Origin: Nereocystis luetkeana
Lineage: Eukaryota > Sar > Phaeophyceae > Laminariales > Laminariaceae
Assembly: GCA_031213475.1 (NCBI GenBank)
Contig: JARUPZ010000024.1
Coordinates: forward strand, 7,567,324-7,631,323
Length of the DNA: 64,000 nt
Direction: 5' to 3'
Below the pieces are notes generated by a model that was not told where the DNA came from, ran no database searches, and saw only the letters and a program-made list of their open reading frames with translations. Below, one piece after another: positions 1 to 60,510 of the stretch. Each line of letters starts with the position of its first letter. Positions within the stretch are counted from its first letter, which is position 1. The position numbers were made by a program, and so were the translations under genes.

Positions 1-347
1 GTAGATATTGTGTGTAGGACTGGCCACTGGCAGCCTTCATCAGCAGATATTGTTTCTGACTCTGTCCGCAGTCCGTGTATTGGATTGCATCAATGCACCG
101 GTCGAGTGAAGCGAATAGGCAAGGCTGCTCGCCCTCCAGCCATGGTGTGACCAAACGAAAACAAAACAGGAGCCCGGTTATCTACGGTAGCTCACGCTGT
201 GATTGGCGTGTTTCACAGGGTCGTTGCCAATCGACGTCAACCCAACCAATGTCTACTATAGTACGAGGTTTCAACGCTGACGCGGATCGCATATCAATAA
301 AAGCGACCGCAAGGCCCGAGGGTAGCCCGACCAATCGTCCCCCGTTC
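1..347. other. Start of unit 1, no gene seen
   Basis: This stretch is repeated at 14,367, 29,111 and about 44,703. It contains short open frames only, and they are not conserved as protein in unit 4. I see no RNA gene or mobile element in it. Confidence 0.5.
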
Positions 348-885
348 TGAACTATATATAGGTTGGGTTGAAATCGGGTGGCAATGACACAGTATAACAT
401 GTCGCTAACTAGGTGAACTAGACAACCAGGGTACCGCTTTGTTCGTCTGTCTGTTCGTTGTTTCTGCGTCGGCCACAACTGACGATCGAGTTGGATCTTT
501 TGTGCGGGATGGAGGACCTTTACTCCGCACAAGGGGAATAATCGTATCTCGTTTTGTGCATGGCAAGGCCTCCACGAGGCAAATATATAGTACACACGTT
601 GCTGTCTCTGGAAGTAGCAACACCGAAACATGAATGCAACTCATTGAAGCTATCATCCACGTGCAAGTCCGCCTCATCAGAGGTTCTTGGTAGGATAGCT
701 CACCCTTCATTTGACTCGCCGAATCACTTACGGCGCTTCGCCCTTGGTGCAAGCAACATGCCTGTCAGGATGGTGAAAACCAGACGTGCTCTGTCCCGGC
801 ATTGTAGGAATACCAGGGTCTATGGTCATACAACTACGGCCAAGCATGATGTCGAATACACCCTGCCCCTCCCCACCCCGGCTGA
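348..885 (+). repeat. Dispersed ~540-bp element, unit 1 copy
   Basis: The segment occurs in every unit (14,714-15,258; 29,457-30,000; about 45,022-45,905 with insertions) and once more, inverted, inside intron 5 of the fourth gene (54,418-54,950). The inverted copy at a different site shows that this is a mobile or once-mobile sequence and not just part of the unit. I saw no clear terminal repeats and no convincing coding frame, so its class is unknown. Confidence 0.6.
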
Positions 886-1124
886 GGAGGGGGGGCACCA
901 GAGGCCAAAACGTTCGCGTCATCGCTTCATGCCCCATTCCAAGCGGGGCTCAACACTACTTCTATCCGCGGTGATTGCGGTTATCGACAGAGAAAAAACG
1001 TTGAAAATACTTCAGAAAATATGCTATTATAGAAACGGGTGGTGATTCTCAGTGACGACGGTCTTCCTTGGGTTTTGTTCGAGCAGGCATCCGTGAAATA
1101 TTTCAGTCTTGAAAAGGTCTCAAT
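886..1124. other. Short spacer before the 210-bp array
   Basis: I see no gene. The stretch links the dispersed element to the monomer array and is conserved in units 1-3. In unit 4 the matching place is opened by an inserted TIR element at 46,167-46,998. Confidence 0.4.
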
Positions 1125-2930
1125 CTACGACCAGCCAGGGACAAATACGACGACCCCCCGAATCGACACCGCCCTGCACGATGTGGAAATCCGACGCCCA
1201 TAGGCTGGTCACTGATTTGATGAGGCCCATGGAACCAACGGCACCCGGGGATAATAGAGCCCCATCTCCGGCGCAAAAACCAATCCATGCTCTTATAACT
1301 CCGACAACCCATGGACGAACACAGACGTTCCCCGGGTCGATACTGACCGGAACAATGGGTAAGCGCCACCCCTACTGGCCGACGTATGGTTGGCTGGGGC
1401 TTATGGATCCAGCGCGCGGCAAGAGTTTCGCCACGGGGCACCGGCGAGGTCCCGCCACACCCGGGGATGACAGGGCCCCATCACGGATTAAATTACCTCC
1501 CATATATCTACAAATCCAACACCCCCCGGGACAGCTACGGAAATCCCTCGGGTCGATACCGCTCAGTATGGTGTGGGATCCCCACCCCTACTGGGTGATT
1601 TCTGATTCAGCTGGGGATCATAGAGTCGGCGCCTGGCAAGAGTTTCTCCAATGAACAACGTCGAACAACAGCCGCACCTGGAGATGATAAGATCCCATCT
1701 CCATATCAGAAATCCGCCCATACATCTACAACTCAAAAATGCCGGGGACGAAAACAGAGATTGACAGGGTAGCTTTCACCCCGCAAGGTGTGGAATTCCC
1801 CACCTTACTGGCTGCTTTATGGTGAGCTAGGGTTCATGGGGCCAGCGACACCAAGAACTGGCCGCTAGATCCCGCCGCACCCGAGAAAGATAAGGTATCA
1901 TCCTCTGATCAGAAAACCTTGCATACATCTACTAGTTACCACTCCAACAACCCGGTGGAAACAAAACGGAATTCCCTCGGGTCGATACCGCCCCCCAGGG
2001 TGGGGATAAACCCCCCCTCGTCGGCTGATTTCTGATATGGTTGGGGCTCAAAAACTCAGCGAGCGGCGCGTGTTGCCCCACGGGACAAGGGCGACGTCCC
2101 GCCGCACCCGGGGATGGTAGGTTCCCGTCACCCAATATATACTGTTTCCATACATCTATATCGTCAACAACCCGGGGACAAAACCTACGACCCTCCAGGC
2201 TGGCTTTGCCCCGCAAGGTGTGGAAGGCCGACCCCACTGGCTGATGTATGGTTTGGCTGGGGCTCATCATGAAGCCAGCGCACGGCAAGAGCTTACTCTT
2301 GGGGTAACGTCGAGTTCCTGTCGCACCCGGGGACTAAACCGGACATCGCTCGGATCGATACCGCCCTAAAAGGCATAATACCTACTACCCCACAGGCAGA
2401 TTTCAGGTTCAACTGGGGCCCATGGTCGATGTCCCGCGCCGTACCCGGGGACAATAAGGCCCATCCTCGGATCAGAAATAATCTCATACATGTACAACTC
2501 AAACAACCCGGAGACTAAAACGGACATTCCACGGGCCGATACCACCCCGCACGGTGTTCTTCTATTTGCATTCAGGGTAGTACATCTACGATTATACTTC
2601 TGACCTTGTACTTACAAATCTACCTAGGGCAACGCAAAGCTTGCGCCAAGGGTGGAGCGGTGGCCGCACCGCAATATGAACGATGGCCCGTCGCTCCCGG
2701 GGATGGTCTTGAGCCCAATCTCTGAATCGAAAATGCTTCCGCATATGTACAACTTCAGTAACCCGGGAACAACATGGGTCGATACCTCCCCCCACAGTGG
2801 TTCTTACATTGCCGGTCAGAGGGATACATCATAACACACACTACGAGTTCTCCCCTACCAGGTACTTACAAATTTCTATGGGCAACGCAGGGCTAGCGCC
2901 ACGGGCGGAGCGGTGGCCGAACCGCTAGTG
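1125..2930 (+). repeat. Array of ~210-bp degenerate monomers, unit 1
   Basis: A phrase like ACAACCCGGGGACAAAACGG recurs near 1,309, 1,532, 1,738, 1,949, 2,169, 2,506 and 2,759, so spacing is about 206-223 bp with shortened or stretched monomers towards the right. Each monomer also carries a CGGGTCGATACCGCC-like block, a GATTTCTGATTTGGCTGGGG-like block and a CGCACCCGGGGATGATAAG-like block. Open frames cross the array on both strands but change with each monomer, so I do not call them genes. Confidence 0.85.
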
Positions 2931-3852
2931 AGTATAACATCTCCTGATCAGCCTGCTGCAACTACTGCTGTTGTACTGGCCGGCTCAAACCGTATACGAC
3001 GGGATACATTGCTACTCTACTAGTGTGTTGTGTCCACATTAAATAGTTCTTTCTACCCAGCTTCATCAGTACACCCAGTGTCCGTCCCGACTCCTAATCT
3101 TAGAGGGACTGACTCTGTGTGACAAACTGTGTGAGATAGAGGAAGAAGAAAAACAATAATAAACCGCAAATTCAAGGGTCAAGCAAGTGAAGTGTCAGCG
3201 TACCGGGTACGAAAGCACAACATCACAAGCTGAACCAGAAAATTGGCACAAAAAGACAATGAACCAATAAACACTTCTGAAACGAAACAAAATACAACTG
3301 GCGCAAGGAGATCAAATGGAAGGCCACTATAAATAGACGGAAATTGTACGTACAGACAGCTGCTGCACGGACGAAGCAACGCAAAGGAGAGGAAGATACC
3401 AGCATACGGACGGCGGGGGGGGCAAACGAAACAAAGGGAGAGACAAGGCAAAGCAGTGAGAAGGAAGAGAGAAGGGAGAAAAACGAGAACGTCGTACCCC
3501 AGGCGGAGATGTTCAAGGGTGCCCGTTTGACCTACGGTAGATTTAATTACTGCCACTACATCGGTACATACTGTGCCGGGGCCCAGCCGGAATGTTGTGC
3601 GGTGTTATAGCTAGAAGGTATCAAAAGTCATGAAATTATTCGCGCAAACTCACTAACTATGGCACGAACACTCCCCACATCGTGTTTGGAGTTGAGGCGG
3701 TGTGTATATATTTCATATAATTTGTACAGTATGCCGTGCCTGTCGTATTTACAGTAATACTCTAGTACGTACGATGACTGATTGGCATGACATCACATTG
3801 TCTACTCTGCTTACTGCAGAGCATTGTACGTACAGTAGTATCTCTGGGTCCC
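2931..3852. other. Purine-rich intergenic stretch, unit 1
   Basis: On the + strand about 3,110-3,510 is rich in G and A, with long GAAGGAAGAGAGAAGGG-like runs. The opposite strand shows Leu/Phe/Ser-rich open frames that are a by-product of this composition. No gene is supported. Counterparts lie at about 17,304-18,225, 32,063-32,984 and 48,981-49,921. Confidence 0.5.
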
Positions 3853-3967
3853 GGTCGCCCCGGTGGGCCCGTGGTACCCTTGGATGCTGCTACAAGTTGG
3901 GGATGGAGTTCGAATCCCACGTGGGGGGTCGAACTTTCAACTTTATTCTGGCTTATTTACAAAAATA
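3853..3967 (+). repeat. tRNA-derived SINE (family A), unit 1
   Basis: It starts GGTCGCCCCGGTGGGC, carries a box B-like GAGTTCGAATCCCAC, and ends in a tail resembling GTCGAACTTTCAACTTTATT followed by A-rich sequence. The same head and tail occur on the opposite strand at 45,281-45,389, at a different site, which supports a mobile tRNA-derived element rather than a working tRNA. Box A is weak here. Confidence 0.6.
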
Positions 3968-4913
3968 ACTGGAGTGAAAAAAAAACGGAATCGACTTCTT
4001 CTGAAAGGGCCTATTCGTAGTAGCAGTTGGGATAGGCGCAATGCGATACGAGTCAACGAGGTAAGAAGGAGCCGAGGACTTCTCGCGATCAAAAGGTGAG
4101 GCAAAACCTGTACGGGGGAGGAGGGACAGGATTCTGCTTCATGACCCCAGATCTGAGTTACGACGGCTACTAGTAACTGCAAGAAGGAGAGAGAATAGAA
4201 GGGCAGAGACAAGAAACAGAATGACAAAAAAAATAAGAAACGAAAAAGAGATACTGTATCAGGATCGAGGAAGCGGCACGGACACTGTCTACTTGTCGTT
4301 GTGTTGGATGTCGACGGGTAGAAAGAAATGTTTAACGTGGAGATCACACGCACCCTCGCTCGAGTCAGTAAAATGCTATTGACAGCGCGGCAATCTTCTC
4401 ATCATCAACCGACAAACCCGCTACCTGCGGCCCATGATGCTTCGTCTCGCTTCGCTGAACGGCATACGGCATACAGCATGATGATGATTTTATGACGTAC
4501 AACAGCAGCAACGGCAGTGCCTTGCAGCCGAGATAAACAATGTTGCCGTTCTGTCGCACGAAATTTCGATGTCACATCACCACATTAAATCCCAGATGAA
4601 ACTCAGCATCAACAATTGCGAAGGATCAAAAGAATGTTTTGGATATTGTCCGTTTCATCTCGAAATGACAGCTCCCGACGTGATGCTTGAGGTATCATGT
4701 CACCTTTTATCAGAGGGATGTGACATCTAGTAGCCCTTCGGAGGACAGCCGCACAGGTCATAGTAAAACCCAGCCCACCTTCCGTTGGTCCTCTCCCCAT
4801 CCCACCACACACGTTGCGCTGCCCTAGCCAGCGTTGGAACACAAAGGCCCCTGTCCCTCTCTCTTCTTCTGCCCTGCAAGTAAGCGAGAGACAAGGCTCT
4901 TGGTTCTGCGACG
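3968..4913 (+). promoter_or_regulatory. 5' flank of gene 1
   Basis: About 320 bp before the start codon (4,590-4,913) is conserved in all four units, including blocks TTTTGGATATTGTCC and CAGCCCACCTTCCGTTGG-like sequence and a pyrimidine-rich stretch before the ATG. The other flanks end at 19,283, 34,036 and 51,147. I could not place a TATA box or transcription start with confidence. The part nearer the SINE differs between units by small indels only. Nothing else is seen in it. Confidence 0.4.
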
Positions 4914-7900
4914 ATGACGATGATGATAATATCGACGATAAAGGCGTTCGCCTTTGCTGCTCTCTGCTCGACGGTCATGCTCGCCGCCCTGAGCGGTGCC
5001 CTCGGCGCCAAGGCCCACAAGAGCGACAACGACAACAGCAGCACCCGATTTGACGACGTTCCTGGCATCGACGCATGCTGCTACGAGCTCACCTCCACCT
5101 CCTCCTCCATCCCGTCCTACAAGGATGGGGGTGCTGCTGCTGCCGGCACAATGACCCTCCTGCACAGCATTTCTTTCGAGGAGCCCACGGTGAGCGTGCT
5201 GTTTCAAGTTTCACATCTAATACCTTGTTTCACATCCCATGAACCATGCAGCATTCCACACGCAAAATCACGACCGGCCCCTGTTTTCTGTCTTGTAGCC
5301 CCGGCCCGAGCACTGATTCTCAAAATAGTTGATTGCAGCCGTCCCAGCGAACTCGGACGCTCAGCGCTCGTGCTTCCCGGTGCCTATTGTGTATACACCC
5401 ACACCCATTCTATGGCCAGCCACTCCACTCCCCAAGCTATATCCGTATGGTGCTTGCTCCTGCTGTATAGAGGTGGCCCTGCTCTGCTCGAAGAGTGGAC
5501 TCCTGGGCTGCTGCTTTGCCGCTGTGCCCGTGCCGCGTGCGTTGCCTCGCCTAGGTTTGACCTGTCAAGGATATCGCTATTAACAGGAACATTACACGTA
5601 GCTGTTTTAGTGCGGGTATTGTAGTTCCTTGACTTCTGTCCGTCAAAGGTTGGTCAGTTGACGGTCTACGCTTGACGCGTCTAGGTCTAATGAGACTCAA
5701 AAGTCCATAGCTTTCAGACTGTGTACCAGATTCCCTGGACGGACGTGACGGCTAGCCATTCACGGCCGAGATTGCCGTCAGCCATCAATAGTGAGAGACA
5801 CATCATCAGAAAAGCAGAGAGCTATCAAAAATGCGTGGCGGAGAGCCCTAAGCTCGCACCATCGATGCTGCGTCATGGTGTTGGGCTGTACCTCCAGCAC
5901 AGCTTCTCTTAATAGAACCAGGTTCGGAATACGATTTCTTTTGTTTTGTATCCTCCGGCGGATTGGTGAAAATAACTTACGTACGTATAACAGTCGCGTG
6001 TGGATATGCATATCGAAACGGGTGCGGTGTACCTGATATGAACTACGCAGTATCTTCCAGGCAGAAGGCACTCCATGTTTGTACAGCGCTTGTTTCCGGG
6101 AGTACGGTAAGCTCGGCCAGACCGGGGGTGCGTGCGTGTCCTTGTGTGTGAGGTGTTACTTTTGTATATGAGTAGTTGCCCCTTGCGTGTTTCTTTATGC
6201 AGTCAACGGGTACCGCTGTGCACGGCTGACTGCCCTCGGTCACTGTCCCCCCTTTGCAATGAAATATGTCCACCTACCGACATCGGACGGGTTACAGCTA
6301 CCCCTCGCTTGGTAGGCCCTTGTCTTGCCTCTGAGACGTGGCAACTTCTCGTGCGCAGGGAATTACCTGGTGTATGCTATACTCCAGTAACTACAGCCAC
6401 TTTCGTGTTGCTGCTGTACCACCGCTGTACTGTAGCGCAATCCCCGTTAGGTATGTAGGTATTATATGTTGTATCTGGTGCCATACCAGGTACGCAGAAT
6501 AACACGAAATAACAAAATGATATTGTATACTCGTATGCGTTTGCGATGAAACCTGTGCCGTCGCCCGCAACACCTTCTCTGATAGCGCCTTGTTGGTTGG
6601 GTTGTGATCAACTACCCTGTCCTCCTGCTGTGCCTCCCCTCGTGCGCCCTGTAGTTTCTCCACATTGAAGAGGAGCTGCTGCTGCTATCTGAGAACCCCA
6701 TCGACACGACCAACCTTCATTTTGTCGTGCACGAGGGAGGAACTCTCACGCTCCGTGCACCGGCCGCCAGGATCAACCGGGACGAGGTGAAAGCGACACA
6801 CCAAAATAAATGCTGTAACCGACGCGCAAGGAATTACTGCATTATAGCACCAACACTACTGTAGAGTTGGATATCGGATGTCGATATCGATAATCGAGTA
6901 CGACACGATGCCGATAACTCAACCACACCACAGTAGTCGATACGATTCGGATGTTCGATACATCGAAGCTTTCGCTCGGTACCACCTGCATAATAAACAC
7001 AGGAATGCAAGGGGATAGCGGGCAAAACACGTTCAATGTGATACCTCGGAAATTCGAGAAATCGATACGTCGATCCTTTAGATACGATGTCCAACACTAA
7101 TGCAGTAGTTGACATCGACCATGATCACCCTACGGGGGGATAGCCGCATTTCAGGACTAACTGAGTTAAGACGAATCGCGTGTGTTGCTACTGCACATAT
7201 TCTAGAAAGCCTCACTTTAAAACATACTTGAAAGCATTTTGTTGGCGCAGCGCATGAACGAATAATTGTACACGAGGGTATATGACCGGTGCACACCGAA
7301 AACCAGCACACACCTCAACACATCCTATGCATAGGGTAGCCACGGAACCACTCACGTGGTGAGAGGACCCGAGCTACTGAGAAATGAAAGCCCAATCGGG
7401 AAAGGGGGTGCCTTCTAGCCGCCTTCCTCCTCTGCCCTGCTCAGGCCTACCGGGTATAGTGCAAGCATCTATTTATGTGAAAGCGGCTGCCAAATAGGAA
7501 AAATGTCCTGGCGAAAACGTTGTGTTTGATATAGGAAACGAGAAGAAAGAAAGACGCGGACAACACTTCCCGTCAGGGGAAACAATATTCTAACTGTTAC
7601 TACTGCACCCTCCACGCACCCTCCATGTTACCCTGTTTTCCCCCGCCGGCAGTCTTCCACCGCGCCTCTGTTCGATGTATCGGGCAAGGTCACGTTCGAG
7701 TTCACCGGTTCCGTTCCGGTTGTCCTACTGGATGGCAGTCTTGTGAGTTTCGTGTCGACGTGTTTGTCATAATCTGGGCTTGAAAACTGTGTCAATCTTT
7801 CCCCCTCCCAATTAAACAGGGTTGCTGCATTAGACCCCACTCAGGCCTTAAGGAATCCAGAGGGACAAATAAATTGAAAGCATGTGGCGATACCGCATCG

Positions 7901-10900
7901 GCTCCACGTGAAGCAAGCTTGCGCTATTGGCGTATATAGTAGGGTGTTAAAGTCCGAACATATGCGGTGTTAGGGGTGAGCGATACGCGCACAGTGTGGA
8001 TGGTAATCCCGTCTAACACGGGTGGTGGCATAACACACGTAAGACACACCCCATGGGACGAATTACATAACCGATTTTTTCAAAAACCATTCCTTCAGGG
8101 GGGTGCACCCGACGGAAACGGTGGCTCAAGAAAACTAATCACCAAGATGTTTCCATAGATCTGTCTTCGCTTGCGATTGACACTCTCGAGAAGATCAGTG
8201 TTCTCATTTGTCCCAGGGGGTGGGAGGCGGGTGTTATCTTGTAATCTTATCACACGTTTGGTACGACAAATCTTATCACACGTGTGGTGCGGGTAGTCTT
8301 GTCGCACGTGTGGTGCGGGTAATTTTATCACACGTGCGGTACGGGAATTTTTGTGTGGTGCGGCTAACCTTAACCTTAACACACGTGTGGTACGGGTAAT
8401 CTTACCACACGTGTGGTACGGGTAATATAATCACACGTGTAATGCGGGTAATATTATTACAGAGGCCAAACATGTGATCTTCCTTATCATACGCGTGGTA
8501 CCGGTGACCTTATCACACGTGTGATGCGCACACCTGCGGTACGGGTACTCTTTTCACACGTGTGGTACGGGTAATATTTATTACACCTGTGGTGCGTGTA
8601 ATATTATCACATATATATGTCAAACAGGTATTTTTATCATACGCGTGGTACGCGGATCTTATCACACATGTGATGCGCACACCTGTGATACGGGTAATAT
8701 TATCATATCTGTGGGATGGGTAAGCTTATCACACGTGTGGTGCGGGTAAGCTTACCCCACGTGTGATACGAGTCATTCTATCACACACTTGGTACCGGTA
8801 ACCTTCTCGCATGTGTGGTACAGGTAAGCGTATCACACGTATAGTGCGGATAAGCTTACCCCACGTGTGATACTACTGGTAGTCTTGCCGCACGTGTGGT
8901 GCGGATAATCGTATCAAATGTGTTGTACGGGTGATTATGCCGCACGTGTGGTGCGGATAAGGTTATCGTACGTGTGGTACGGGTGATTTTATCACATGTG
9001 TCGTAAGGGTAATAGTATCACACGTGTAGTACGGGTCCTATTTTCACATATGTCAAACACGTAAACTCATCCCACGTGTGGTACGGGTTATCTTCTCACA
9101 CCTGTGGTCCGGGTAATCTTATCACACGTGTGGTGCGGGTATATACACTCTACTCTACAATATGTTCTTCTTGCTGCACGCCCTTTCCTGCTGTGGACGC
9201 TTGGTGGCATCGCACTACAGCCCTGCAAGCAGTTCGCTTTTTGGTCAAGGGGGTAGCAGATCGATACGTGCTCGGTAGAAAAAGAATGCCAGATAACAAT
9301 GCCCGAGATAGAGAAAAAAGGCCAGCTGCGCGCCCAGTTCGCCATGCCATGCTGAATTAAAGGAGGTACTTGAGTTCTTAATTCGTTAGAAGGATAACAC
9401 AACCCGTCTCGTAAGCCGTAGGCCGGCCCTCTCGTTTTGGCTGGCTGCATACATGAGGAACTTATCAATGAAACACATGCTACTACAAGTAGATATCTCC
9501 CCCGTCGAATTACGTGTAGAAGACCTCTAAGGACCGGTAGTGTGGGAGATCAATATTTCCAGAAGTTCCAGAAGTTCGAGATTATAGATTAGCCCAGAAC
9601 AGAAGGTTTCCTGATTATTCTTGGACTGAATATGTTTTTTTTTTATCGCTCCTGGCATCTGCTCCCTTCGTAATCATCTAAGGATCATGACAGAATGCCT
9701 CCGTATCTTGATGTATGTCGATAAAAATAATCCAAACTTTCCACATTTATGAAAATTTCGGGAAGAAACAAACTCTCCGATCGTAACGGCCGCAACACGT
9801 TTTTTCCCCTGCGTAGCATTGTTCTTATCCTGTATGATATACTTGATTGCTTGACCCCGTGCAGGTGGATGAAGGAATAGTTGTGCGGGTGACGGATGAT
9901 ACCGCCTCATTCATGTCCGATGGAGAGGACATTATCCGTTACTACGCCAATGGGGTAACGGTATCCAGGATGGAAGACGGGGGAGAACTGGTGAGTGTCC
10001 GTGCGCGCTGGAGGTTTGAGTAGTAAAGAAGCAAGCAGTTAACAACAGGAGCCTAGACATTGCGTATGGACGTCCGACCCCAGCATTCGGCCCTGCAAGG
10101 ATTTAAGCTGAGAAAGTATTTCGGTAAACCTTCAATGCTTCACTCCTCCACCCTCGTTTCTCACAATAATAGGATTTGTTAAGTTTGGTGTCCATGCCAC
10201 TCGTCATACACCCTTTTGCCGAGCCTTCAAAAACATCTCGCTGGGCAATCCCACTTATCTGTGGTTGAGCTAGGAATCGAAATGGGCTGTATGCACTTCC
10301 GGTTTTCCTGACAGCTCGGAGAGTTGCGTAACCGCAGTAACCTCTCTCGCATCTTTTCGTTTGGAACGTCCATCGAAACATGAAACTAGAACGCTTTGTA
10401 CTAAGATTCACTCCTTGGAGGCAATAGACGAACAACACACGTATACCATCAATCGGGGCACTCTAACCGATGTCGATACTGCCCTTCCCCTGCGACTTCC
10501 CCTACGCTCACCCATAACACCGTGCCTCACATGTATACGTGTTCATTGCACAATCGTACAGGACGGTTCACACCACGAGGAGGTCAAGCTAAGCCCTCAG
10601 CTCAAGGCGTCGCTGGATGCAGTCCACGCCAAACTCAACGGCGAATCTGGCGTAGCGTCCTCGACTCACCGACCAACTTCCTTCTCCTCGTCGCCTTCCT
10701 CTACTGCATCCCCTTCACTTACCTCCGAAGTCGGAGACAACAGTGCCGAGAACGACGATTGCATCGAGACTCCCTACTTCCAGCCCCTGGGTGAACCCGG
10801 CTCTTGCCCCGCTCCGGCATTTAGACCTGCAATCGCCCACCCGGCCAGACCCTCCTCCTCCTCCTCTACACCCTCTACACCCTCTACATCCGAACACGAA

Positions 10901-13038: not shown

Positions 13039-14366
13039 ATGCATAGGTTGTAGGTGCTTCCTCAATTTCGGTTTTTCTGTAGGGCATCAGTTTAACATTC
13101 CACCTGTTCAACTTGTAGGGATGACCTTAAGCCTATTACTACACTGTGTGCTACTGTAATTATTGTTTTACTGACCTGTTAAGAGGGGGCTAATGTTGTG
13201 ATCAGAACCCACGATAGACCCAAACACCACGCACCCCCCGACCTTCACACGCAATTTTTGGTTTTGATTAGTATCACACGATGTGTTGCCCGGTAATACG
13301 TGACTCGGTCTAGGCGTACCCTTCCATGTGTATTGTACGACCTGGGCGTGCAAAGGAAGGAGGGCAATGGCAGAAAAAGATGTGTATGGTGTGTGGTACA
13401 GAAACCCCGACGGGGACGATTGATTTCGTAGTTTGCGTAAATTTCCCTATCATGCTGGTGGGGAGTACTGCGCTTCCCCACGAGCATCGTCGCTGGCGTT
13501 TTTGTTTAGGAGGGCACCGCTGCCCTTGGGATGTCATGTAGACTCACGTGGTGACAGTTTCTAATGTTTTTTTAACGTTCGTAGAACTGGAGTTCACAGC
13601 AGGGGTACAGAGCTAGTTGACACGAGGCCCGTCAGGAGGTCAATCAACACCGCTTCTCATAAACACATCGCTGGGGTGCAAGCTCGAACTCCGAGCCGTT
13701 GTACCTGCCAAGCACCACGTGGTGTATACTGGCAATGATTTTAGTGGTGTACACGACACGACACGTACTAATTAAAATACTAAGAGGGTTAGCACTAAGG
13801 ACAGCACAGGTAGACGTGAACCACCCTTCCGGCATCTTATCAGGAGGTGGTAAAAGTGGCCGGGACCCTCTCCTTGCATAGTGTTAGCGTAACCAAAACT
13901 TGTGGAAGCCTTCAACACTGTGGCAAAACCCACAAGGTTTCGACAACCTCTCAATCCGATACGCGTACTGGTGTGCTACATTGTTAAACGTCTTCTCAAA
14001 ATGAGTTTTACGTCGATATCAGGCAAGGGGCGGGGTCCCGGCCACCTGTGGGACAGGCGTCCTAAATACCTTGAGGAAAATCAAAGCCCCGCGAGGCTGC
14101 GTGTTTGTTTGCGTTCCGTGGGATTTGCCTCATTTATTTCGGTGTAATATCATCCTCGGCATCAGCCGTATTATCGCCATCAACATTATCAGAATCGTCA
14201 TCATCGTGCATGTGTGCCACCTATGCCCGGGAGGGAGAGAAGCAAGCATCTACTGCATGCCTATTTAGGTACGTTTCCATTCGTCGCAGCAAACGGAAAC
14301 ACAGATAGGCGCCTATTGAAAGGCCAACCCATGCAATAAAAGGCAGCCTCTGGTATGTGATACCTG
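13039..14366. other. 3' flank of gene 1, no gene seen
   Basis: About 1.3 kb after the stop codon. It is shared with unit 2 (27,782-29,110) with only scattered changes, more weakly with unit 3 and in part with unit 4. Short open frames in it are not kept in unit 4. It presumably contains the 3' untranslated region, but I could not place a polyadenylation site. Confidence 0.4.
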
Positions 14367-46998: not shown

Positions 46999-47199
46999 TC
47001 AGAGGCCAAAATTTCCCATCAACGCTTCATGCCCCATCCTAATCGGAGCCCACCAATACTTCTTGCAGTCATCGACACAGAAAAAAACGTTTGAAACGCT
47101 TCAGAAAATATGCTAGAAACGGGTGGTGATGTTTTGTGCCGACGGTCTTCCTTGCTTTTGTTCGCGCAGGCATCCGTGAAATGTTTTAGGCTTGAAATG

Positions 47200-48980: not shown

Positions 48981-49921
48981 ATATAGCATCTTCAGATCAG
49001 CCCTCTGCAGCAACTGCTATACTGGCCGGCTCAAACCGTATACGACTGAATTGCTACAGTGTGTTGCCTTCACATTAAATCGTCATTTCTACCCAGCTTC
49101 ACCTGTACACCCAGTGTCCGTCACGATTCCCGATCCTAGAGAGATACTGATTCTGTGGTCACAGACTGTGAGAGACAGAGGAAGACCAAAAGCATTGAAA
49201 ACTCAAATCGCAAATTCAAGGGTCAAGCAAGTGAGATGTCATGCTACCGGGTACGAGATCACAACGATCAAAAGCAAGACCAGAAAAGATGAACAAAAAA
49301 GACAATGAATCAAGAATATTTCTGAAATGAAACAGAAAACAACTGGAGCAAAGCGACCAGAAAGACTGCTATTAGCAGACAGAAAGCATGCATACGTGCT
49401 CAGGAAGGACAGATAGCTACTGCACGGACAAAGCAACACGAACGAGAAGAAAATACCGGCATACGGACGGCGGGGGGGGAGGGACGAAACAAAGGGAGAG
49501 ACAAAGACAAAGCAAGAAGGAAGAGAGAAGGGAGAAAATATAGAACATCGTACTCCAGGCGGTGACAATAACATGGGTGCCCGCCTGACCTACGGTAGGT
49601 TTATTTGCTGCCAGTACATCGGTACATACTGTGCCGGGGCCCAGCCGTAATGTTGTACGCTATCATACCTGGTAGGTAGTGCAAGTCTTAAACCAATTCG
49701 CGCAAACCCACTATGGAGCGAACACTCCCCCTTGGTGCTTGGAGTTGAGACGATTTGTATCTCTTTCATACCCGGTAGAATATATACAGCATGTCGCGCC
49801 TGTCGTATTTACAGTAGTAGTACGTACGTACGATGATTGGCTGACACAGCATCACATTGTCTACTCTGCTTACCTGCTACTGCAGAGCATTGTACGTACA
49901 GCAGCAGTATATCTGGGCCCC
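48981..49921. other. Purine-rich intergenic stretch, unit 4
   Basis: It is the diverged counterpart of 2,931-3,852, again with GA-rich runs (about 49,430-49,540). No gene is seen. Confidence 0.4.
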
Positions 49922-50046
49922 GGTCGCCCCGGTCTCGCCGGTGGGCAAGTGGTACCCTCGGATGCTGCTACAAGTTGGTGCTGGAGTTCGAATCCCTCAT
50001 AGTGGATCGAACTTTCAAGTATATTCTGATTTACTTGCAGAAAAAT
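49922..50046 (+). repeat. tRNA-derived SINE (family A), unit 4
   Basis: The head GGTCGCCCCGGT, box B-like GAGTTCGAATCCC and the AACTTTCAAGTATATTCTG tail are kept. A ~10-bp insertion lies in the head. Its presence in unit 4 dates the insertion before the array's first duplication. Confidence 0.55.
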
Positions 50047-50180
50047 GTAAAACGGAATCAACCGCTGAGAGCGTATTGATAGTAGCGGAGGTAGGCGCAA
50101 AATTCGATGCGAGTCGACCTCGAGGGAAACAAAAGCCGAGGTATTCTCGCGATTAAAATGCGAGACAAAAAACGTAGCGA

Positions 50181-50202
50181 GGGGGGGGGGGGGGGGGGGG
50201 GG
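50181..50202 (+). repeat. G22 homopolymer
   Basis: A run of 22 G lies in the 5' flank of gene 4. Units 1-3 have only GGGGGAGGAGGG at this place, so the run expanded in unit 4. Confidence 0.9.
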
Positions 50203-50247
50203 CTCCCACGTACGTCACCCCGGATCTGAGTTACGACTACTACTACT

Positions 50248-50436
50248 GTAGAAAAAAGAAAAGACGGGCAGAACAATGGATCGAATGGGATAACAGAAAA
50301 AAGAAACAAAAAAGAGAGCTTGTACCTACCTCTCTAGGATCGGTAGAAAAAAGAAAAGACGGGCAGAACAATCGATCGAATGGAATAACAGAAAAAAGAA
50401 ACCAAAAAGAGAGCTTGTGCCTATACCTCTCTAGGA
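50248..50436 (+). repeat. ~95-bp tandem duplication in the 5' flank of gene 4
   Basis: GTAGAAAAAAGAAAAGACGG starts at about 50,248 and again at 50,343, each followed by near-identical sequence through CTCTCTAGGATCG. Units 1-3 have one related copy. Confidence 0.8.
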
Positions 50437-50752
50437 TCGAGGAACCGGCACGGACACTATCTACTTACTTGTCGTTGTGTTGGATGTCGACGGGTAGAAA
50501 GAAAGCTTTTAATATCTGAAGAAGCCACACACTCCGTCCAGTCAGTACGATGCTATTATTGACAACGCCGCAGTCTTCTCGTCATAAACCGCCAAACACG
50601 CTATCTGTTGCCAAGGATGCCTCGTCTTGCTCCGCTGAACGGCATACAGCATACATACAGTATGGTATTACGACGTACCACAGCAGCAACGGCAGTGCCT
50701 TGCAGCCGAGATAAACAAAGTTGCCGTCCTGTCGCACGGAATTTCGATGGCG

Positions 50753-50890
50753 CATCACCAGATGAAACCCAGCAAGAAATGGCTAGAATCAATAAATATT
50801 TTGGATATTGTCCACATCACGACATTAAATCCCAAATGAAACCCAGCATCAAGAATTGGGAAGAATCAATAAATATTTTGGATATTGTCC
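50753..50890 (+). repeat. ~70-bp imperfect tandem duplication in the 5' flank of gene 4
   Basis: ATCAATAAATATTTTGGATA with flanking CCCAGCA- and CATCAC-containing sequence occurs twice. Units 1-3 have one copy of the TTTTGGATATTGTCC block, which is part of the conserved 5' flank. Confidence 0.75.
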
Positions 50891-51147
50891 GTTACATCTC
50901 GAAGCGACAGCTCCCGACGTGATGTTTGAGGTATCATGTCCACTTTTTTCAGATGTTGGATCTCACGCAATAGCCCCTCGGAGAATAGCCCCACAGGTCA
51001 TAGTAAAACCCAGCCCAGCTTCCGTTGGTCCTTTCCCCATCCCACCACACTCGTTGCGCTGCCCTAGCCAGCGTTAGAATACAAGGTCCCCTGTCATTCT
51101 CTCTTCTGCCCTGCAAACAAGCGAGAGACAAGGCTCTTGGTTCTGCG

Positions 51148-54100
51148 ATGATGACGATGATGATGATGATGATATCCACGATGAAGACGTTCGCCTTTGC
51201 TGCTCTCTGCTCGACGGTCATGCTCACCGCCCTAAGCGGTGCCCCCGGTGCCAGGGCCCAAAAGAGTGACAAAGACAACAGCAGCAGCCGATTCAACGAC
51301 GTTCCTGGTACAATAGGGGCATGCTGCTACGAGCTCACTTCCTTCTCCTTCCCGTCTTGTTACAAGGATGGGGGTGCTGTTGCGGCCGGGACAATGACCC
51401 TCCTGCACAGCATTTCTTTCGAGGAGCCCACGGTGAGCGTGCTGTTTCGAATTGCCACATCTGATACCTTGTTCCACATACCAGGAACGTTGCAGCATTC
51501 CACACTCAAATCACGGCCGGACTCAGTTTCCTGTCTCGTAGCCCCGGCCCGCGCACTGATTCTCTAAATAGTTGGTTGCAGTCGTCCCAACGAACTCGGA
51601 CACTCAGCGCCTCTCCTTCCCGTTGTACCTTCCGCGTATACACCCACGCTATGGCCAGCTACTCCACTCTCCAGGCTGGATCTGTATGGTGCTTGCTCTC
51701 TGCTGTGTAGGGTGGCCCTGCTCTGCTCGAAGAGTGGACTCCTCGGCTGCTGCTTTGCCGTTGCGCCCGTACCGCCGTTGCGCCTTTGCCTCGCCTAGGT
51801 TTGACCCGTCGAGGATATCGCTAGGAGTAGTATACTTGTTTTAGTGCGGGTATTGTAGTTCCTTGACTTCTGTCCGTCAAAGGGTGGTCAGTTGACGGTC
51901 TACGCTTGACGCGTCTAGTCCTATTGAGAATCAAAACTATAGGTTTCAGACTGTGTACCGAATTTCCTTGACGGCTGTGACGGCTAGCCGTCAATATTCG
52001 AGATTGCCGTCAACTACAGTAGTAAGATACCAGGTACACAACACCCAAAAACCAGTGAGCTACGTACCAGAAACGCGTGGCGGGGAGACCTAACCTCGCA
52101 CCATCGATACTGCGTCATGGTGTTGGGCTATACCTCCAGCGCAGCTTCTCTTGATAGAACCAAGGGGGGAATCGGAGTTGCATGTGGATATGCACGTCGA
52201 AACGGATACAGTGTACCTGGTGTTCACGCAGTGTACCTGATACCCTGGTAGGCAGGAGGCACTCCATGTTTGCACAGCGCTTGTTTCCGGGAGTACGGTA
52301 AACTCGGTCAAACCTGGGTACGCGTGTGTGCTTGTGTGCGATGTTGTTTTATGTTGTATGAACACTCGCCCCTTGCGTGTTTCTTTATGCAGTCAAATGG
52401 TACCGTTGTGCACGGCTGACTGCCCTCGGTCACTGTCCCCCCTTGCATTGGTGTCCACTTACAGGCATCGGACGGATTACAGCCACCCCTCGCTTGGTAC
52501 GCCCTTGTCTTGCCTCTAAGTTGTGGCAACTTCTCATGCGCAGGGAATTACCTCGTATATGCTGTGTTGCAGTAACTTCAGCCACTCGCGTGTTGCTGCT
52601 GTACCACTGTACTACTGTAGCACAATCCCTGCTAGGTCTTCAGGCATTATAATTTATTTGTACCTGGTACCATACCAAGTGTATGCACAATAACAAAAAC
52701 AAACAAAATAATGGTGTACGTATGCGATGAAACCTGTGCCGTCGCCCGCAACACCTTCTCTGATCGCGCATTGTTGGTTGGGTTGTGATCAACTACCCTG
52801 TCCTCCTGCTGTACCTCCCCTCGTGCGCCCTGTAGTTTCTCCACATTGAAGAGGAGCTGCTGCTGCTATCTGAGAACACCATCGACACGACCAACCTTCA
52901 TTTTGTCGTGCACCAGGGAGGAACCCTCACGCTCCGTGCACCGGCCGCCAAGATCAACCGGGACGAGGTAAAAATGGCACCTACTGTATACACCAAATGC
53001 TGTAACCGACGCGAAAGTAGCTACAGTATAATGCCAGCACTACGTAGTGTTGGCTATCGGATACCGACATCGGAAATCGAGTACGATACGACGCCGATAA
53101 AACTAGCACACTACGTTAACCTGTACTATTTCGATACTTGATACATTCGCTCAGTACCTGCAAAGTAAACACAGGAATGCAAGCGGATGGAGGCCAAAAC
53201 ACGTTCGATGTAATTGATATATCGAAAATTCGATAAACCGATACATCGATACTTTAGACACGATGTCCGATGTCCAACACTGCAGGTATATACGTATATA
53301 TGCCATACGGCCATGATATCCGCACGGGGGGGTACCCGCATTATCAGTACGAACTGAGTTAAAACGACTCGCGGGGGTGAATTATGCACATAAACTATAA
53401 GCTTCACTTGAAAAGAGACTTGAACGCATTTTATTGGTGAAGCGCATTAACAATCAGTGGTATGCCAGGGCGTATGGTTGATGCACACCGAAACGCAGCA
53501 CAAATCTTCACATTTCCTATGCATAGTGTAATCACGGAACCACTCACGCGGTGAGGGGATTCGAACCACTGAAAAATCAAAGCCCGAACGGGGAAGGGGG
53601 CGGCTTCTAGCCCCCTCCCCATTCTCCCTTCCTATGGCTTACCAGGTACTGGTATAATACAAGCATCTTTGGAGTGGAAGCGGCTATCAAAATAGGAAAG
53701 TTGTCGTATCGATAACCTGGGGTTTGATATAGAAAACGAGAAGAAAGAAAAACGCGGACAACGCTTCCTCTCAGGGAAGATGATATTCTCACTGTTACTG
53801 TGCCCCCCGCGTACCCTCCATGCTGCCCCGTTTCTTCCCACCGGCAGTCTTCCACCGCGCCTCTGTTCGACGTATCGGGCAAGGTCACGTTCGAGCCTGC
53901 CGGTTCCGTTCCGGTTGTCCTACTAGATGGCAGTCTTGTGAGTTCCGTGTCGACGTGTTCGTCATCATCTCGACTTGAAAACATTTTTTTAATTTCCCTC
54001 TCCCAATGAAACGGGGTTGCTGCATTACACGCTACCCCCCCTCACATCCAAAGAGAGAGATAAAAAAGTCGAAAGCATGTGGCGAGTACCGCATCGGCCA

Positions 54101-57100
54101 CAGGCGAAGCAAGCCTGCGCTGCTGGAGTATACAGTACTCGTAGGGTGTTGGTACTTCAAACCGATGTGACGATTCGCACACTGCATGGACGGTGATACC
54201 CTCTAACACGGGTGACGAGATGACACACCTGAGACATCTCACGGGACGAATTACGGGGCCGATTTTCTCCGAAACCATGCCTTTAGGGGGTCGCACCCGA
54301 TGAAAACGGTGGCTTAAGAAAAAAAACTCGCCAAGTTGTTCCCATAGATTCGTCTCAGCTTGCGAGTTACACTCTCGAAAATGACAGGTTTCAAATTTTT
54401 CCCAGGGGGGGTGGGGGGTGTACTCGATAGCATGCCCGGCCGTAGCCGTATGACCATAGACCCTTGCAACCCTACAATGCCGGGACGGAGCACGTCGGGT
54501 TTTCTCCGGCCAGGCAGGCATTGCATGCACCAAGCGTGAAGCACTGTGAGGTGTCGGGCGAGTCGCATGAAGGGTGAGCTGCATCCTACTAAGAACCGCT
54601 TGTGAGGCGGATTTTCTTGCGTATGGATGACAGCATCAAATGAACTGATTTAATTGCTGGTGTGGCCAGTTTCCAGAGGCAGCAATGGGTTTACTATGTA
54701 ACTGCCTCGTGGGTGCCTCGCCGTATACACACGACGTGATACGATCATCCCGCTTGTGTGCGAAGTAAAGGTTCTCCCGGCACAAAAATGATCGAACTCG
54801 ACCGCCAGCCGTTCGTTGTATTCGCCAAAAACAAAAACAAAAAAACGGCACCCTGGCTGTCTAGCTCACACAGTAAGAGGTGTGTTTTACAGCGTCGTCG
54901 CCAACCGACGCCGACCCAACCTACATATTCACCAGCTATATAAAATAGGGGGGGGGGTCTTGCAATCGTATCACAGGTGTGATACGGGTAATATCATCAC
55001 ACGTACGTGTGGTACCGGTAAGTTCATCACATGTATGGTACGGGTAGTTGATACCTGGTATGAGGCTTAGATAGGGTAGGCGATTGGTTAACCTTTTACA
55101 TTTAGCCCAACGGACTAAGACCTTCACAAATAATGGCGTCGTCGGCAGGACATGGGTCGTTGGTCGTGAGTTCGAATCTCACGTCATCGCTTTTTAAAAA
55201 AAAGTGAGTTTCATCAGGTCAATAATCTGAAAAATGCTTCTGGATCCCCAGAAATTGGAACCGCGTGTGGTGGCGCGTCGACCCGTAAAATCCTGTTCGT
55301 TCCAGGGGGGGAGAGTGTTATGAGGCTTGGTTTGTGTAGGCGATTGGTTAACCTTTTACGTTTAGCCCAACGGACTAAGACCTTCTCATAGTCTCATCAC
55401 ACGTGCAGCACGGGTAATCTTGATCCAGGTGTCGTACGGGTTATCTTATTGCAGGTGTCGCACGGGTAATCTTATCACACAATGACATGTGGAACGGCTA
55501 AGATTGTCGTATGTGCGGTACGGGTATTATTATCACACGTGTGGTACGGGTAATATTATCACATACGTGTGTGATACGGGGTAATATTATCGTACGTGTG
55601 GTGCGGGTAATATTATCACAGGTGTGACACGGGATATCTTATCATAGGTGTCGTACGGGTAACTTTATCAGATAGATGTGTGGTGCGGTTTGTGTTATCA
55701 CACGTGTGGTGCGGGTATACGTATTACTCCATATGCTCTTCTTGCTGCACGCCTTTTTGTGCTGTGGACGCTTTGTGAGATCGCACTACAGTATTTATTT
55801 GCTGTTACACAGTTGGGTTTTTTATCGAGGTGATACATATACAGTAGATAGATATGAGCTCGTTATAGAAGGAAGACCTATTGACAATGCCACATGCTAA
55901 GATAGAGAAAGAAGGCCAGCTACGCGCCCAACTCGCCATACCATGCTAAGTTTAAGGAGGTACTTGAGTTCCATTTTCATTATCGGAATAGTGAAACCCC
56001 TCTCCTAAGCCATAGCTCGGCTCTCTAGTTTTGGCTGGCTACATGCATGAGGAGCTGTTCAACGAAACCCATGCAACTGTACAAGTAGATATCTCCCCCA
56101 TCGTATTGCATGTAGCAGGCCTCTCAGAGCCGTTAATGTGAGAGAGCTTTTCCTGCAGAATCTCGAGAAGTTCGAGATTATATTTTGTCGCAAAAAAAGT
56201 AGGTTCCCGATTTTCCCGATTTTTGTTTTGCCAATTAATTATGTGAAATTGGAACGTTCCTGATATTTGCTCCTTCCGTAGAAAGCCACAAATCATGGTA
56301 GAATGCGTCCGTATCTTGATACGAATTTCCCAAACTTTCCTAATTTTGAAAAAAATTGGGGGGATAAAAGCTCTCCGATCATAGCGGCCGCGACACGCGT
56401 TTTCCCTTCATTACATTGTTCTAATGATGTATGATATACGTGATTGATTGACCACGTGCAGGTGGATGAAGGGATAGCCGTACGGGTGACGGATGATGCC
56501 GCCTCATTCATGTCCGATGGAGAGGACATTGTCCGTTACTACGCCAATGGGGTAACGGTATCCAGGATGGAAGACGGGGGAGAACTGGTGAGTGTGCGTG
56601 CGTGCTGGAGGTTGGAGCAGTAAAGCAGCAGGCAGTGAACAACAGGAGCCTATATATATACCTGGTATATATATATAACGTCTGGAGGCCCCAGCATTCG
56701 GCCCCCCGCAAGGTTTTGCTTAGAACATACTTCGGTAACCCTTCAGTGCAGGATTGCTAAGCAGGCGTTTTACGACAGAGGTTCGCCGTAATTTTTCTGG
56801 GGCTCCTCACTTGACGAGCTCCACAACTCACCCGAAGACTGGCTTCAGCAAAAATCTAACTGCATCCCGATGAATAATCACATGGCCCAAGTATACAACT
56901 ACGTCATTTTTCGAAACAAGACTGGCGTTCTTATGATTATGGGCCCCGCCTTTCAGAAAAAAAAATAGCGAATATGTGCTACCCTTATCGTAGAACGCAC
57001 CTAAAGGTTTGGTGGCAATGCCACACATCATATGCCCTTTTTGCCGAGCCTTCAAATAACCCGCCAGGCGATTCGACTATTATGTGGTTGGGCTAGGAAT

Positions 57101-59715
57101 CGAAATGCACTGTATGGACTCCGGGCTTTCCTGGCAGCTCGGAGAGTTGCGTACCTACAGTAGTCCCTCGCATCGTTTGTTTTGTCACGTCCATCAAAAC
57201 GTGAAACTCGAAAGAATTGAGCTCCCTACTAACATTCACTCATCGTAGACAACAGACGAACATAGCACGTATGCAACCGACCGGGGCACTCTAGCCGAAG
57301 TCAATACCGCCCTTCCCCTCCGACGTCCCCCTCCAATCACCCATACTCCCGTGCTATACATGTATAATGTGCACATTGCCCTAACGTACAGGACGATTCA
57401 CACCACGAGGAGATCAAGCTAAGCCCTCAGCTCAAGGCTTCGCTGGATGCATTCCACGCCAAACTCAACGCCGAGTCCGACATAGCGTCTATGACTCACC
57501 GACCCACCTCCTTTTCCTCGTCGTCTACCCCCACGGCATCCCCTGCTCCTACCTCGAATGTCGGAGACAATGGTGTTGAGAACGACGATTGCGTCGGGAC
57601 TCCCTACGTCCAGCCCCTGGGTGGACCCGGCTCTTGCCCCGCTCCGGCCTTAAGACCTGCAAACACCGACTCGGCCAGCTCCTCCTCCTCTACATCTTCT
57701 ATATGCGAACTCGAAGACAGCGATGGAGAGAGTGATGCTTGTCGTTTGACCCTGTTTCACCAGGCTCCGGGTGGGCCCGGCTCTAGCCCCTCTCGGGAAT
57801 CTTCCTCTGCCGAGACCGCCACGACTTTCTCAGCCAGAGACGCTGAAACGGAAACCCACGCTGCCGCCGGCGTCTCTGAACGTAACGGTGGCAACAACAC
57901 CAGCGCCACGGCTGGCGACGGAGGCAGCATCAACGTTAATGCGATAGCGGAACGCAAACAACACGACCGCGACGGGGACAAGCGAGATGAATCAGCATCA
58001 TCGACGACGACGCCCCTACCCCTCGAAGCTACCGCGGCCAGTGATGTTCCGGACGCTCCCACTTCTACCCCGGTCGACCGCGACGTTGACGGACGCGGCA
58101 ACAGCAGGACCAACACTGACCAGACCTCATCCTCAGCGGCGTCCCCCCGACGGACCGACAACGATGTTACCGACGGACCCGCGGATGCCAACCAGGATGC
58201 CAACGTCAAGCACGACCGGACGAGGTCCGGCAGACGAGTCAAGATCCACTTGGCGTCGTCAAAGGCGAAGCGCGTGCTCAAAGTGGGCGACAAGCTAGTC
58301 GGGCCCTTGATATCCTCGGACGGCAAGTCGTCCGTGTGGCCCACCCCGCATGGGTACATCTTCTTCGCCAATAATCCTGGCGGTGATGGCAAGGCCTCAG
58401 CTGCGTCGAGAAAGAACAGGCAGGAGCCCGGACTTGCCCGCCCGTCAGAAATGGTGGCCGCCGATGCCCGTCGGGTATTTCGCGTACTCCAAGCCAGGGC
58501 GGAGGTGAGAAAAGAGCAGCGGGATGGGACCCTGCCGACGGAAGGACGAGCGAACGGGGGGAGGAGTGCTTGGGGGTGGGTTTCCTCGATGCACACTCGG
58601 CACCAGAAGCTTCTCAGGACGACGAGGCGGCACCTGGGAGAAGTTGAGATGACGCTCGACGAGAGGGGATGCGTGGTGAGTTGTCTGTTGGAGGTTTGGT
58701 TGGGAATATCGGGCTAGCGGCAACACTGAGTTATAAGGAGCATATTTTGTTCGTTCAATACCTCTAAGTGGTGATCGCGGTGTCCCCTAGAAATGAAGGT
58801 GTGGTCGTTACCTTCTAGTGCTGGATAGGCGCGTGGCACGGATCGGGGTAGCACCCAAGGTGTTCGAGTCTGCTCGCGTGAAGAGCTGGTTTCCACATCA
58901 CGCAGCGAATATTTGAGTCTGGTGAAACTTGCAAGCTAAAGCTCGATACGCATTTTCGTGGGCTTCCAGTAGGTATAGGTGGAGTTGAATCGAGCTTAAA
59001 CCGTAGGATCCAAACCTACCACATTTGAGAGTTACAATGGGTCAAACGTCGAACCCCTTACCGTAACATGGCTATACTACAATCAAGTAAATCCCATACC
59101 TCAGCACGCCTCGATAATATAACATTACTGTGCATCACTTTGCTGAGTAGGACCAGCGGTGATTACGGTGTCCCCTGGGTCAGATAAGATAGTCCTGGGG
59201 TGGTCATCCACTAGCGTACCAGTAGGATAGTGGCAAGGCAGCAGCGTCGATAGCTGAAAGACGGGATTACCCACCACAATTCGACAATTATCAATGGCAA
59301 ACTTGTGGCAAGCGTTTGGACCGCCATAGTGATTTTTTGCGCTTTTGTCGTGCTTGCGGTTGATCCAGGATACAGAGGCAACAAGCAATCCTACGTTGTA
59401 GTAGGTGTGATAAGATAAACGTCCAACACGCCGCCCTCTATCTGTTGAAGCGTGCCTCCCATATCGTGCCTCCCACCCCCCCTGCCGGCCTCAATTTTTG
59501 CCCGACGGCACCCAACATCTACACAGGAGGTGACCGTCGACGGCACCTGTGTGCTGTCAAAGTCAGGCCGTTTTAAACGAGAGTGGATGAACCGCTTCCC
59601 CTGGCGGAGGAGAAAGGACAGCAACTACCAGCTGCGCGTCGAAGGGGACCGAATGGAAGTCCGTTTGGGGGGGAAGACTGTCTGGGGGGTTACGGCTAAT
59701 GATATCATGGGATAG
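51148..59715 (+). CDS. Gene 4: diverged secreted paralogue, eight exons, about 776 residues
   Basis: Inferred exons: 51148-51432, 52252-52297, 52393-52571, 52836-52967, 53848-53937, 56462-56587, 57392-58675, 59527-59715. The first ATG of a Met-rich run was chosen (MMTMMMMM); the next Met would also serve. Exons 4, 5, 6 and 8 are almost unchanged from genes 1-3: against gene 3, exon 4 differs at 3 of 132 bases, one of them silent. The introns, by contrast, have diverged heavily. Exon 7 is about 190 bp shorter. It keeps one of the three ~24-residue repeats and lacks other Ser/Asp-rich stretches. Its second PGSCP motif reads PGSSP. Exons 2 and 3 stay open only with a different acceptor (GGTAG before 52,252) and a different frame in their first part. 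A net 5-bp loss in exon 3 then returns to the shared frame at GRITATPRLV. These two exons are the least certain. Confidence 0.66.
54418..54950 (-). repeat. Inverted copy of the dispersed ~540-bp element in intron 5 of gene 4
   Basis: The reverse complement matches 348-885 along its length, sharing for example TATGACCATAGACCCT and GCCTCGTGG blocks. It is inserted in G-rich sequence just before the minisatellite, and G-rich runs remain on both sides (about 54,405-54,417 and 54,950-54,958). The other units lack it here. Confidence 0.75.
54958..55050 (+). repeat. Palindromic minisatellite, left part, in intron 5 of gene 4
   Basis: A few repeats of the CACACGTGTG type, cut off from the rest by the tRNA-like element that follows. 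Confidence 0.75.
55061..55388 (+). repeat. tRNA-like element bounded by 68-bp direct repeats
   Basis: Bases 55,061-55,128 and 55,321-55,388 are near-identical 68-bp direct repeats, each beginning TGAGGCTT and ending CA. They enclose 192 bp. TAGCCCAACGG (55,103-55,113) fits a box A and GAGTTCGAATCTC (55,169-55,181) a box B, followed by a run of T. A purine tract stands just before the right repeat. This could be a tRNA-derived SINE with a partial second copy. It could also be a very small terminal-repeat retroelement relic. I cannot decide between them. Confidence 0.5.
55389..55715 (+). repeat. Palindromic minisatellite, right part, in intron 5 of gene 4
   Basis: Further ~26-bp repeats of the CACACGTGTG family. 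With the left part the array is much shorter than in units 1-3. Confidence 0.8.
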
Positions 59716-60510
59716 ATACATACACATATATATATATATATATATATATACCTGGTAGGCGATTTCTCAGTCGTTTTTTTTTTAAAGCATCAGTTTCATT
59801 TTCCACGGTTCAACTCGTAGGGATGATCTAAGCCTACTACTACACGTTGTGCTACAGTGGGTATTGTTTTACTCATCCGTTACGGGGGGGTTAATGTTGC
59901 AAGAATCAGAACCCACGATAGCCCCAAACACCACTCGCCCCCCTACGTTCACACGCCATATTCGATTAGTATCATATGTTGCCCGGCAATACGTGTTCTG
60001 GGCTAGGCGTACCCTTCCATGTGTATTGTACGGCCTCGATGGCGAAGGAAGGAGGGCAACGGCAGGGAAGAGGTCTGTGGTGTGTGGTGTATGGTACACA
60101 AAACCCGACGGGGACGATAGACATTTTGTGCTGCCGTAATTACGTGTGGCATATCTCTACCACTCTGTTGATAGCTCTGCAGGTGGAGAGTCCTGCGCTT
60201 CCCCACGGGCACCACCGCTGTTTTTTGCGTTTTTGGTGCGAGGGCACCGTCGCCTTTGGCATGCCATGCAGTCTGTCTTGGTAACGGTTTCTAAATGGTT
60301 GAAACGTTCGAACGACTGGAGTCCACAGTAGTAGGGGCACAGAGCTCATCGACACAGGGTTGGGCAGGAGGCCAATCAACACCGCTTCTCCAAAACACAT
60401 AACTGTGATGCAAGCTACTCGAAGCCCGAGCCGTCGTGCTTGCCACATGCAGCGCGGATGGTTGTTTTTTTCGCGAAGTTTTTTCGTCTACAGTAGTAAT
60501 GTACAAGACA
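59716..60510. other. 3' flank of gene 4 to the end of the array
   Basis: The counterpart of 13,039-13,770, recognisable to about 60,510. No gene is seen. Confidence 0.4.
59725..59750 (+). repeat. TA microsatellite
   Basis: An uninterrupted run of TA about 24 bp long lies right after the stop codon of gene 4, in the presumed 3' untranslated region. Units 1-3 have no such run. Confidence 0.9.

Follow-up and report, generated by a model that had tools for sequence, protein, structure and literature searches.

A ten-unit tandem array of an orphan gene family in the brown alga Nereocystis luetkeana

We analysed a window of 64,000 nucleotides from the genome (465 Mb) of the brown alga Nereocystis luetkeana (contig JARUPZ010000024.1, here C24; the window is C24:7567324-7631323) and found that it holds U7 to U10, with which an array of ten head-to-tail units ends; each unit has one predicted gene. 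The whole array, U1 to U10, lies at about 7,481,450-7,627,769 of C24, as found by a genome search and by fetching and self-aligning the flanks. We regard it as probable that these ten paralogues arose by unequal crossing-over and were reshaped by gene conversion and purifying selection, that their product is secreted and that the copies are kept for the amount of this product. What we observe is the copy number in the assembly, the conservation-based gene models, their intactness, the relative ages of the units, their mosaicism and the constraint on reading frames; from these, we infer crossing-over and conversion as the mechanism, secretion, a location in the wall and a role in dosage. As a genomic feature, it is an ordinary tandem amplification in which the copies evolve in concert, and the amplified family is an orphan.

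A first-pass annotation of the window had described a four-unit array with units of 14-16 kb that spans positions 1-60510 and may continue past the left edge. We ran the self-comparison of the window that this annotation had proposed as a check, and four head-to-tail units were indeed seen. The first three (U7-U9) give head-to-tail alignments of up to 19 kb with 90.6-95.4% identity, whereas U10 aligns in pieces only, with 73-84% identity in the self-comparison of the window and 73-86% to the other units overall. The length of these alignments rules out chance as the source of the repetition. Neighbouring units are paralogous, lie on the same strand and have both spacer and gene in common. The suspected continuation to the left is borne out by the assembly, where the total is ten units and not four. 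Distances between genes in the window are 14.37, 14.75 and 17.1 kb; the first two agree with the proposed unit size, whereas the last unit is longer, and the part of the array inside the window stops at 60446. The units in the window are as follows (the borders of U7 to U9 are nominal):

1-13310, + strand: U7, seventh of ten, from self-BLAST, the genome search and the fetched flank; its left part lies in spacer that is continuous with U6
13311-28055, + strand: U8, nearly identical to U3 (72.76 kb leftward, 99.9% identity, identical coding sequence)
28056-42683, + strand: U9, paired with U4 (98.2% over the whole length; of 16 alignment windows of 1 kb, the first 11 have 99.8-100%)
42687-60446, + strand: U10, the oldest and rightmost unit, about 17.8 kb, with two gaps in its alignment, at about 43.8-44.7 kb and 45.9-47.0 kb

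These two long stretches, which have no alignment to other spacers, lie in the spacer before the U10 gene (42687-51100).

Based on unit alignment and conserved splice sites, each unit has one predicted gene with six phase-0 coding exons. When this model is carried to all ten units, 50 of 50 introns are GT-AG, the lengths of all 60 exons are multiples of three, and every unit has an open frame of 701-764 amino acids (aa) without an internal stop. Thus, each unit in the window has a complete multi-exon reading frame, as annotated previously. The predicted genes in the window are:

4914-13038, + strand: gene in U7, 758 aa; exons 4914-5189, 6655-6786, 7653-7742, 9865-9990, 10562-12025, 12850-13038
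19284-27781, + strand: gene in U8, 764 aa; exons 19284-19559, 21022-21153, 22023-22112, 24571-24696, 25287-26768, 27593-27781
34037-42411, + strand: gene in U9, 762 aa; exons 34037-34312, 35781-35912, 36752-36841, 39224-39349, 39922-41397, 42223-42411
51148-59715, + strand: gene in U10, 701 aa; exons 51148-51432, 52836-52967, 53848-53937, 56462-56587, 57392-58675, 59527-59715

The number of exons differs from the eight proposed before. A tblastx comparison of the U8 region with seven dispersed paralogues gave 185 matches, of which 148 overlap the six exons and 37 lie outside. Thirty of these 37 fall at 23858-24202, in a dispersed element of intron 3 that matches in many frames and in both orientations, and the other seven are short (14-29 aa). 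Since the matches outside the exons are either this repeat or short, we reduced the coding exons from eight to six; the paralogue comparison reveals coding exons only, and untranslated exons are invisible to it. Six likewise remained after we had looked in the window units for conserved exons of compatible phase and had compared the seven paralogues to find additional conserved blocks. The three-base periodicity of the mismatches between U8 and U10 was too weak to locate exons (1 of 107 windows flagged).

The predicted protein starts with a hydrophobic leader, followed by a conserved module of about 116 aa (exons 2-4), a stretch rich in Ser, Thr and Asp (exon 5) and a conserved C-terminal domain of about 200 aa (exons 5 and 6). 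The leader resembles a signal peptide in all ten proteins, and the encoded protein is probably secreted.

The units are of different ages, and all ten copies are intact, in line with the first-pass annotation. U1 to U9 are mutually 90.9-99.9% identical with a pairwise synonymous divergence (dS) of 0-0.042; between U10 and the other nine units, dS is 0.23-0.26. Within U1 to U9, partners five units apart stand out: U3/U8 (99.9% over the unit), U2/U7 (99.4%) and U4/U9 (98.2%). The block U2-U4 aligns to U7-U9 over 49 kb at an offset of 72.76 kb, with 275 mismatches and 23 indels. The mismatches form clusters: in window coordinates, 113 fall at -7 to -3 kb, 43 at 10-11 kb and 60 at 40-43 kb, and the core of the block at 12-40 kb (28 kb) contains only 23. 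Furthermore, the nearest relative shifts along the unit. For instance, U4 is mostly closest to U9 and at its 3' end to U5, and around exons 4 and 5 the nearest relative of U2 is U1. The relationships are thus patchy, with tracts common to different partners, as in concerted evolution. Together with the scattered presence of the intron-3 element (listed below), the clustered mismatches and the changing nearest relative fit a recent block duplication with conversion-like patches.

We propose the following order of events. An old duplication by unequal crossing-over would have split U10 from the ancestor of U1 to U9, which then would have expanded into several units of about 14.5 kb. More recently, the three-unit block U2-U4 may have been duplicated to U7-U9, with a shift of five units, and patchy gene conversion would have blended the units. 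The array resembles other tandem arrays that evolve by birth and death with gene conversion: it has one gene per head-to-tail unit, mixed ages, a block duplication and conversion-like tracts. It differs from them in that its gene could be placed in no named family and in that its units are long (about 14.5 kb) with large introns. It offers a clear natural example of birth-and-death evolution in which the steps can be put in order; genomic features of this kind are common.

Comparisons among the copies support the view that selection maintains the reading frames and that purifying selection acts on the end domains. Among U1 to U9, all three distinct indel intervals in exons are multiples of three and occur at one Ser-codon repeat, whereas in introns, outside a minisatellite, only 13 of 45 intervals are multiples of three and 32 would break the frame. 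At the intron rate, about 13.7 frame-breaking indels would be expected in the exons, and none is found. In these nine units, exon sites are also less variable than non-exon sites (99 of 2277 against 716 of 6159, the latter including the minisatellite). Between U8 and U10, 277 of 2094 exon positions (13.2%) and 1438 of 6114 non-exon positions (23.5%) differ. The ratio of replacement to synonymous divergence (dN/dS) against U10 is 0.47-0.51 in nine of nine pairs (about 0.47 for U8-U10). Replacement changes between U8 and U10 fall short of the neutral number in the whole coding sequence, and significantly so in exons 2-4 and the C-terminal domain; the low-complexity part shows no significant shortfall (P 0.30). 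One of 286 single changes between U8 and U10 would by itself read as a stop, where codons with two changes were scored one change at a time.

The copies would be retained mainly for the quantity of protein that they supply to the cell wall or extracellular space and not for sequence diversity; selection for copy number or dosage is possible and compatible with the data. Brown algae evolved complex multicellularity independently, and numerous extracellular proteins of this group await description. In this context, the intact ten-unit array flags one family as possibly relevant for dosage.

Several points weigh against this reading. The indel test takes intervals as independent although the units exchange sequence. 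Replacement and silent changes among U1 to U9 (70 and 35) are close to the neutral expectation of 76.6 replacements (P=0.087), and neutral change would produce no stop with a probability of 0.067. In exon 3, 7 of 90 columns are variable, as many as in some introns, and dN equals dS. We identified the leader by visual inspection, and no annotated domain fixes the location or function of the protein. Lastly, the core of the duplicated block, with its 23 mismatches in 28 kb, is similar to what would be expected for alleles.

This last point raises the explanation that the repetition of U2-U4 in U7-U9 is an assembly artefact, in which two haplotypes of a shorter array, with about five to seven units each, were joined in line. 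Equal-scoring copies of chromosomal sequences on small contigs (C1051, C1554 and C1756 with C27; C1457 and C1042 with C4) hint at redundancy left over in the assembly, although these may be repeats. However, there is no N in the 200 kb examined around the array, and U1, U5, U6 and U10 each lack a nearly identical counterpart (U1/U6 93.7%). We consider the artefact rather unlikely, and since these four units are unpartnered, seven distinct unit sequences (U1, U2/7, U3/8, U4/9, U5, U6 and U10) remain in any case, on one or two haplotypes.

An explanation to which we give about the same limited credence is that most of U1 to U9 are recent neutral duplicates that conversion and drift keep alike and that are intact owing to their youth, with only one or two copies that matter. 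The near-neutral ratio of changes, the missing stops and the mosaic structure agree with it, and neutrality of amino-acid change among these young copies is not rejected. Given also the variation in exon 3, retention could partly reflect youth plus conversion. The absence of frame-breaking exon indels and the lower variability of exon sites argue against this explanation. The first-pass annotation had taken the intact copies to imply selection for gene number or diversity; selection on the frames is upheld, whereas selection for number is compatible with the data, as conversion and youth also explain the similarity, and diversity finds no support, since amino-acid change among U1 to U9 is indistinguishable from neutral.

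An array of, for example, recognition or immune-type proteins selected to differ is very improbable: although this is a clustered multigene family with an apparently secreted product, 69 of 105 changes among U1 to U9 fall in the low-complexity part of exon 5, and 5 of 36 pairs have a dN/dS slightly above 1 (with few changes), replacement change exceeds the neutral expectation in none of four regions tested among the array copies, U3 and U8 have identical coding sequences, and conversion homogenises the copies.

The amplified genes belong to an orphan family for which the libraries searched gave nothing convincing. With Pfam, we searched five open reading frames (ORFs), two spliced proteins and family alignments of nine and five members and saw no match above a curated cut-off; for the alignments, this refers to the bit score of the first member and to the E-values of the others. 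The closest candidate was Rdx / SelW (PF10262), with weak similarity over the end of exon 5 and the start of exon 6 in three of nine family members (best E 2.9e-4). The bit scores of the first member (20.4, E 6e-4) and of the full-length proteins (16.9 and 17.8) are below the curated cut-off of 22.6 bits, and the matches examined begin at profile position 11 or 12, leaving uncovered the profile start, which we take to bear the redox motif. Comparing the family with the genome's own SelW-like protein by hhalign gave a probability of 0.1% and did not support this identity. Separately, an Rdx/SelW-like gene at L035:1498-1743 has Cys-Gly-Gly followed by an in-frame TGA at the redox motif, consistent with a selenoprotein, and the Rdx/SelW-like match on L034 also contains one TGA.

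Among the weak matches to single members, the lowest E-value was that of VIT_2 (E 0.003, in one of five members of the exon 2-4 module). Sequence searches of the PDB gave nothing convincing (best E 0.013, a Cas1, then 0.096 and 0.9). A bulb-type lectin, suggested by eye, was rejected, as no Pfam lectin profile matched at E 5 (filters remove most matches above 0.1) and the PDB profile search gave no lectin. For the portion of the C-terminal domain encoded by exon 5, structure prediction gave an unusable model (mean pLDDT 37.9). In a literature search that covered titles and the beginnings of abstracts, none described this gene family.

Relatives of the array gene are dispersed in the same genome. 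By protein searches, we counted by hand about 24 further loci among the best candidates listed: ten on C24 (6.29-7.29 Mb), two each on C3, C11, C13 and C27, one on C5 and five on C15. For this count, same-strand rows no more than about 5 kb apart were merged, and weak rows at C3:5.66 Mb and C13:1.047 Mb were left out. The array and the ten dispersed C24 loci fall within about 1.34 Mb. The C24 locus at 7.12 Mb is probably a pseudogene, with several stops in the matched stretches; some other loci carry a single stop that may merely be an exon end. In the seven paralogues examined, the C-terminal domain is split at the identical exon border and is 35-60% identical to that of U8, and the three closest have all six exons. 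Unlike the array copies, the dispersed paralogues lie outside long arrays. Exons 5 and 6 were found in 7/7, exon 3 in 6/7 and exons 1, 2 and 4 in 3/7, 4/7 and 3/7, where each paralogue was compared over 10 kb and upstream exons may fall outside.

In a tree of the C-terminal domain (midpoint root), the array copies form one group (100/100) that adjoins three C24 paralogues (97/97), and the branching order within the array is not resolved. The viral contigs searched gave no relative, and a single bacterial match was unsupported on direct comparison. A tentative extension of our reading is that the family is confined to this genome among the sequences searched, of which it is the only algal genome, and has a hot spot on C24 with ongoing block duplication and conversion; copy number could vary from one individual to the next and determine how much of an extracellular-matrix protein is made.

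Introns and spacers of the array contain three kinds of repeats:

23851-24190, - strand: 340-bp high-copy dispersed element in intron 3 of U8; in U1, U3, U4, U6, U8 and U9 and not in U2, U5, U7 and U10 (for U2 and U5, absence is deduced from intron length and no match)
22606-23492, no strand: 26-bp minisatellite in intron 3 of U8; equivalents at 8241-9141, 37336-38158 and 54970-55718
15400-16900, no strand: degenerate tandem repeat of about 216 bp in the spacer; each of the ten units has matches, U1 a partial one

The 340-bp element has at least 35 further matches, 34 of them near full length at 89-91% identity, out of 2453 first-look candidates. By eye, its T-rich start and G+C-rich end suggest a short interspersed element (SINE) on the minus strand. 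All four units in the window have the minisatellite, with the core CACGTGTGGTACGGGTAA, in intron 3 (38 matches at no more than two mismatches, compared to 0.01 expected). The repeat of about 216 bp recurs on some 20 contigs, and its longer matches have 64-72% identity. As the left edge of U1 (C24:7481450) falls inside this repeat, recombination there may have helped the first duplication.

The array is flanked by two further features:

C24:7476919-7477392: ORF with a sub-threshold Chlamydia PMP repeat, left of the array (E 0.0054)
C24:7635074-7635769: AAA ATPase exon, right of the array (E 2.9e-7)

Kinship of the array gene with the PMP-like ORF was rejected, as searching the flanks with profiles of both protein modules yielded no match below E 0.1. 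A genome search with Chlam_PMP, in which 150 of 234 candidates were scored, gave no match at E 0.001. For the idea of sex linkage, we searched the genome for HMG_box, as an HMG-box gene is presumably the sex determiner, and found 15 matches, none on C24. Equal-scoring HMG-box matches at C27:2969485 and on the small contigs C1051, C1554 and C1756 could be leftover assembly redundancy or a repeat. Lastly, the EsV-1-7 cysteine-motif family (PF19114), a hallmark of brown algae that matched in none of 14 control genomes, is very large here, with at least 150 matches (1711 first-look candidates) on C1, C14, C25, C26 and other contigs.

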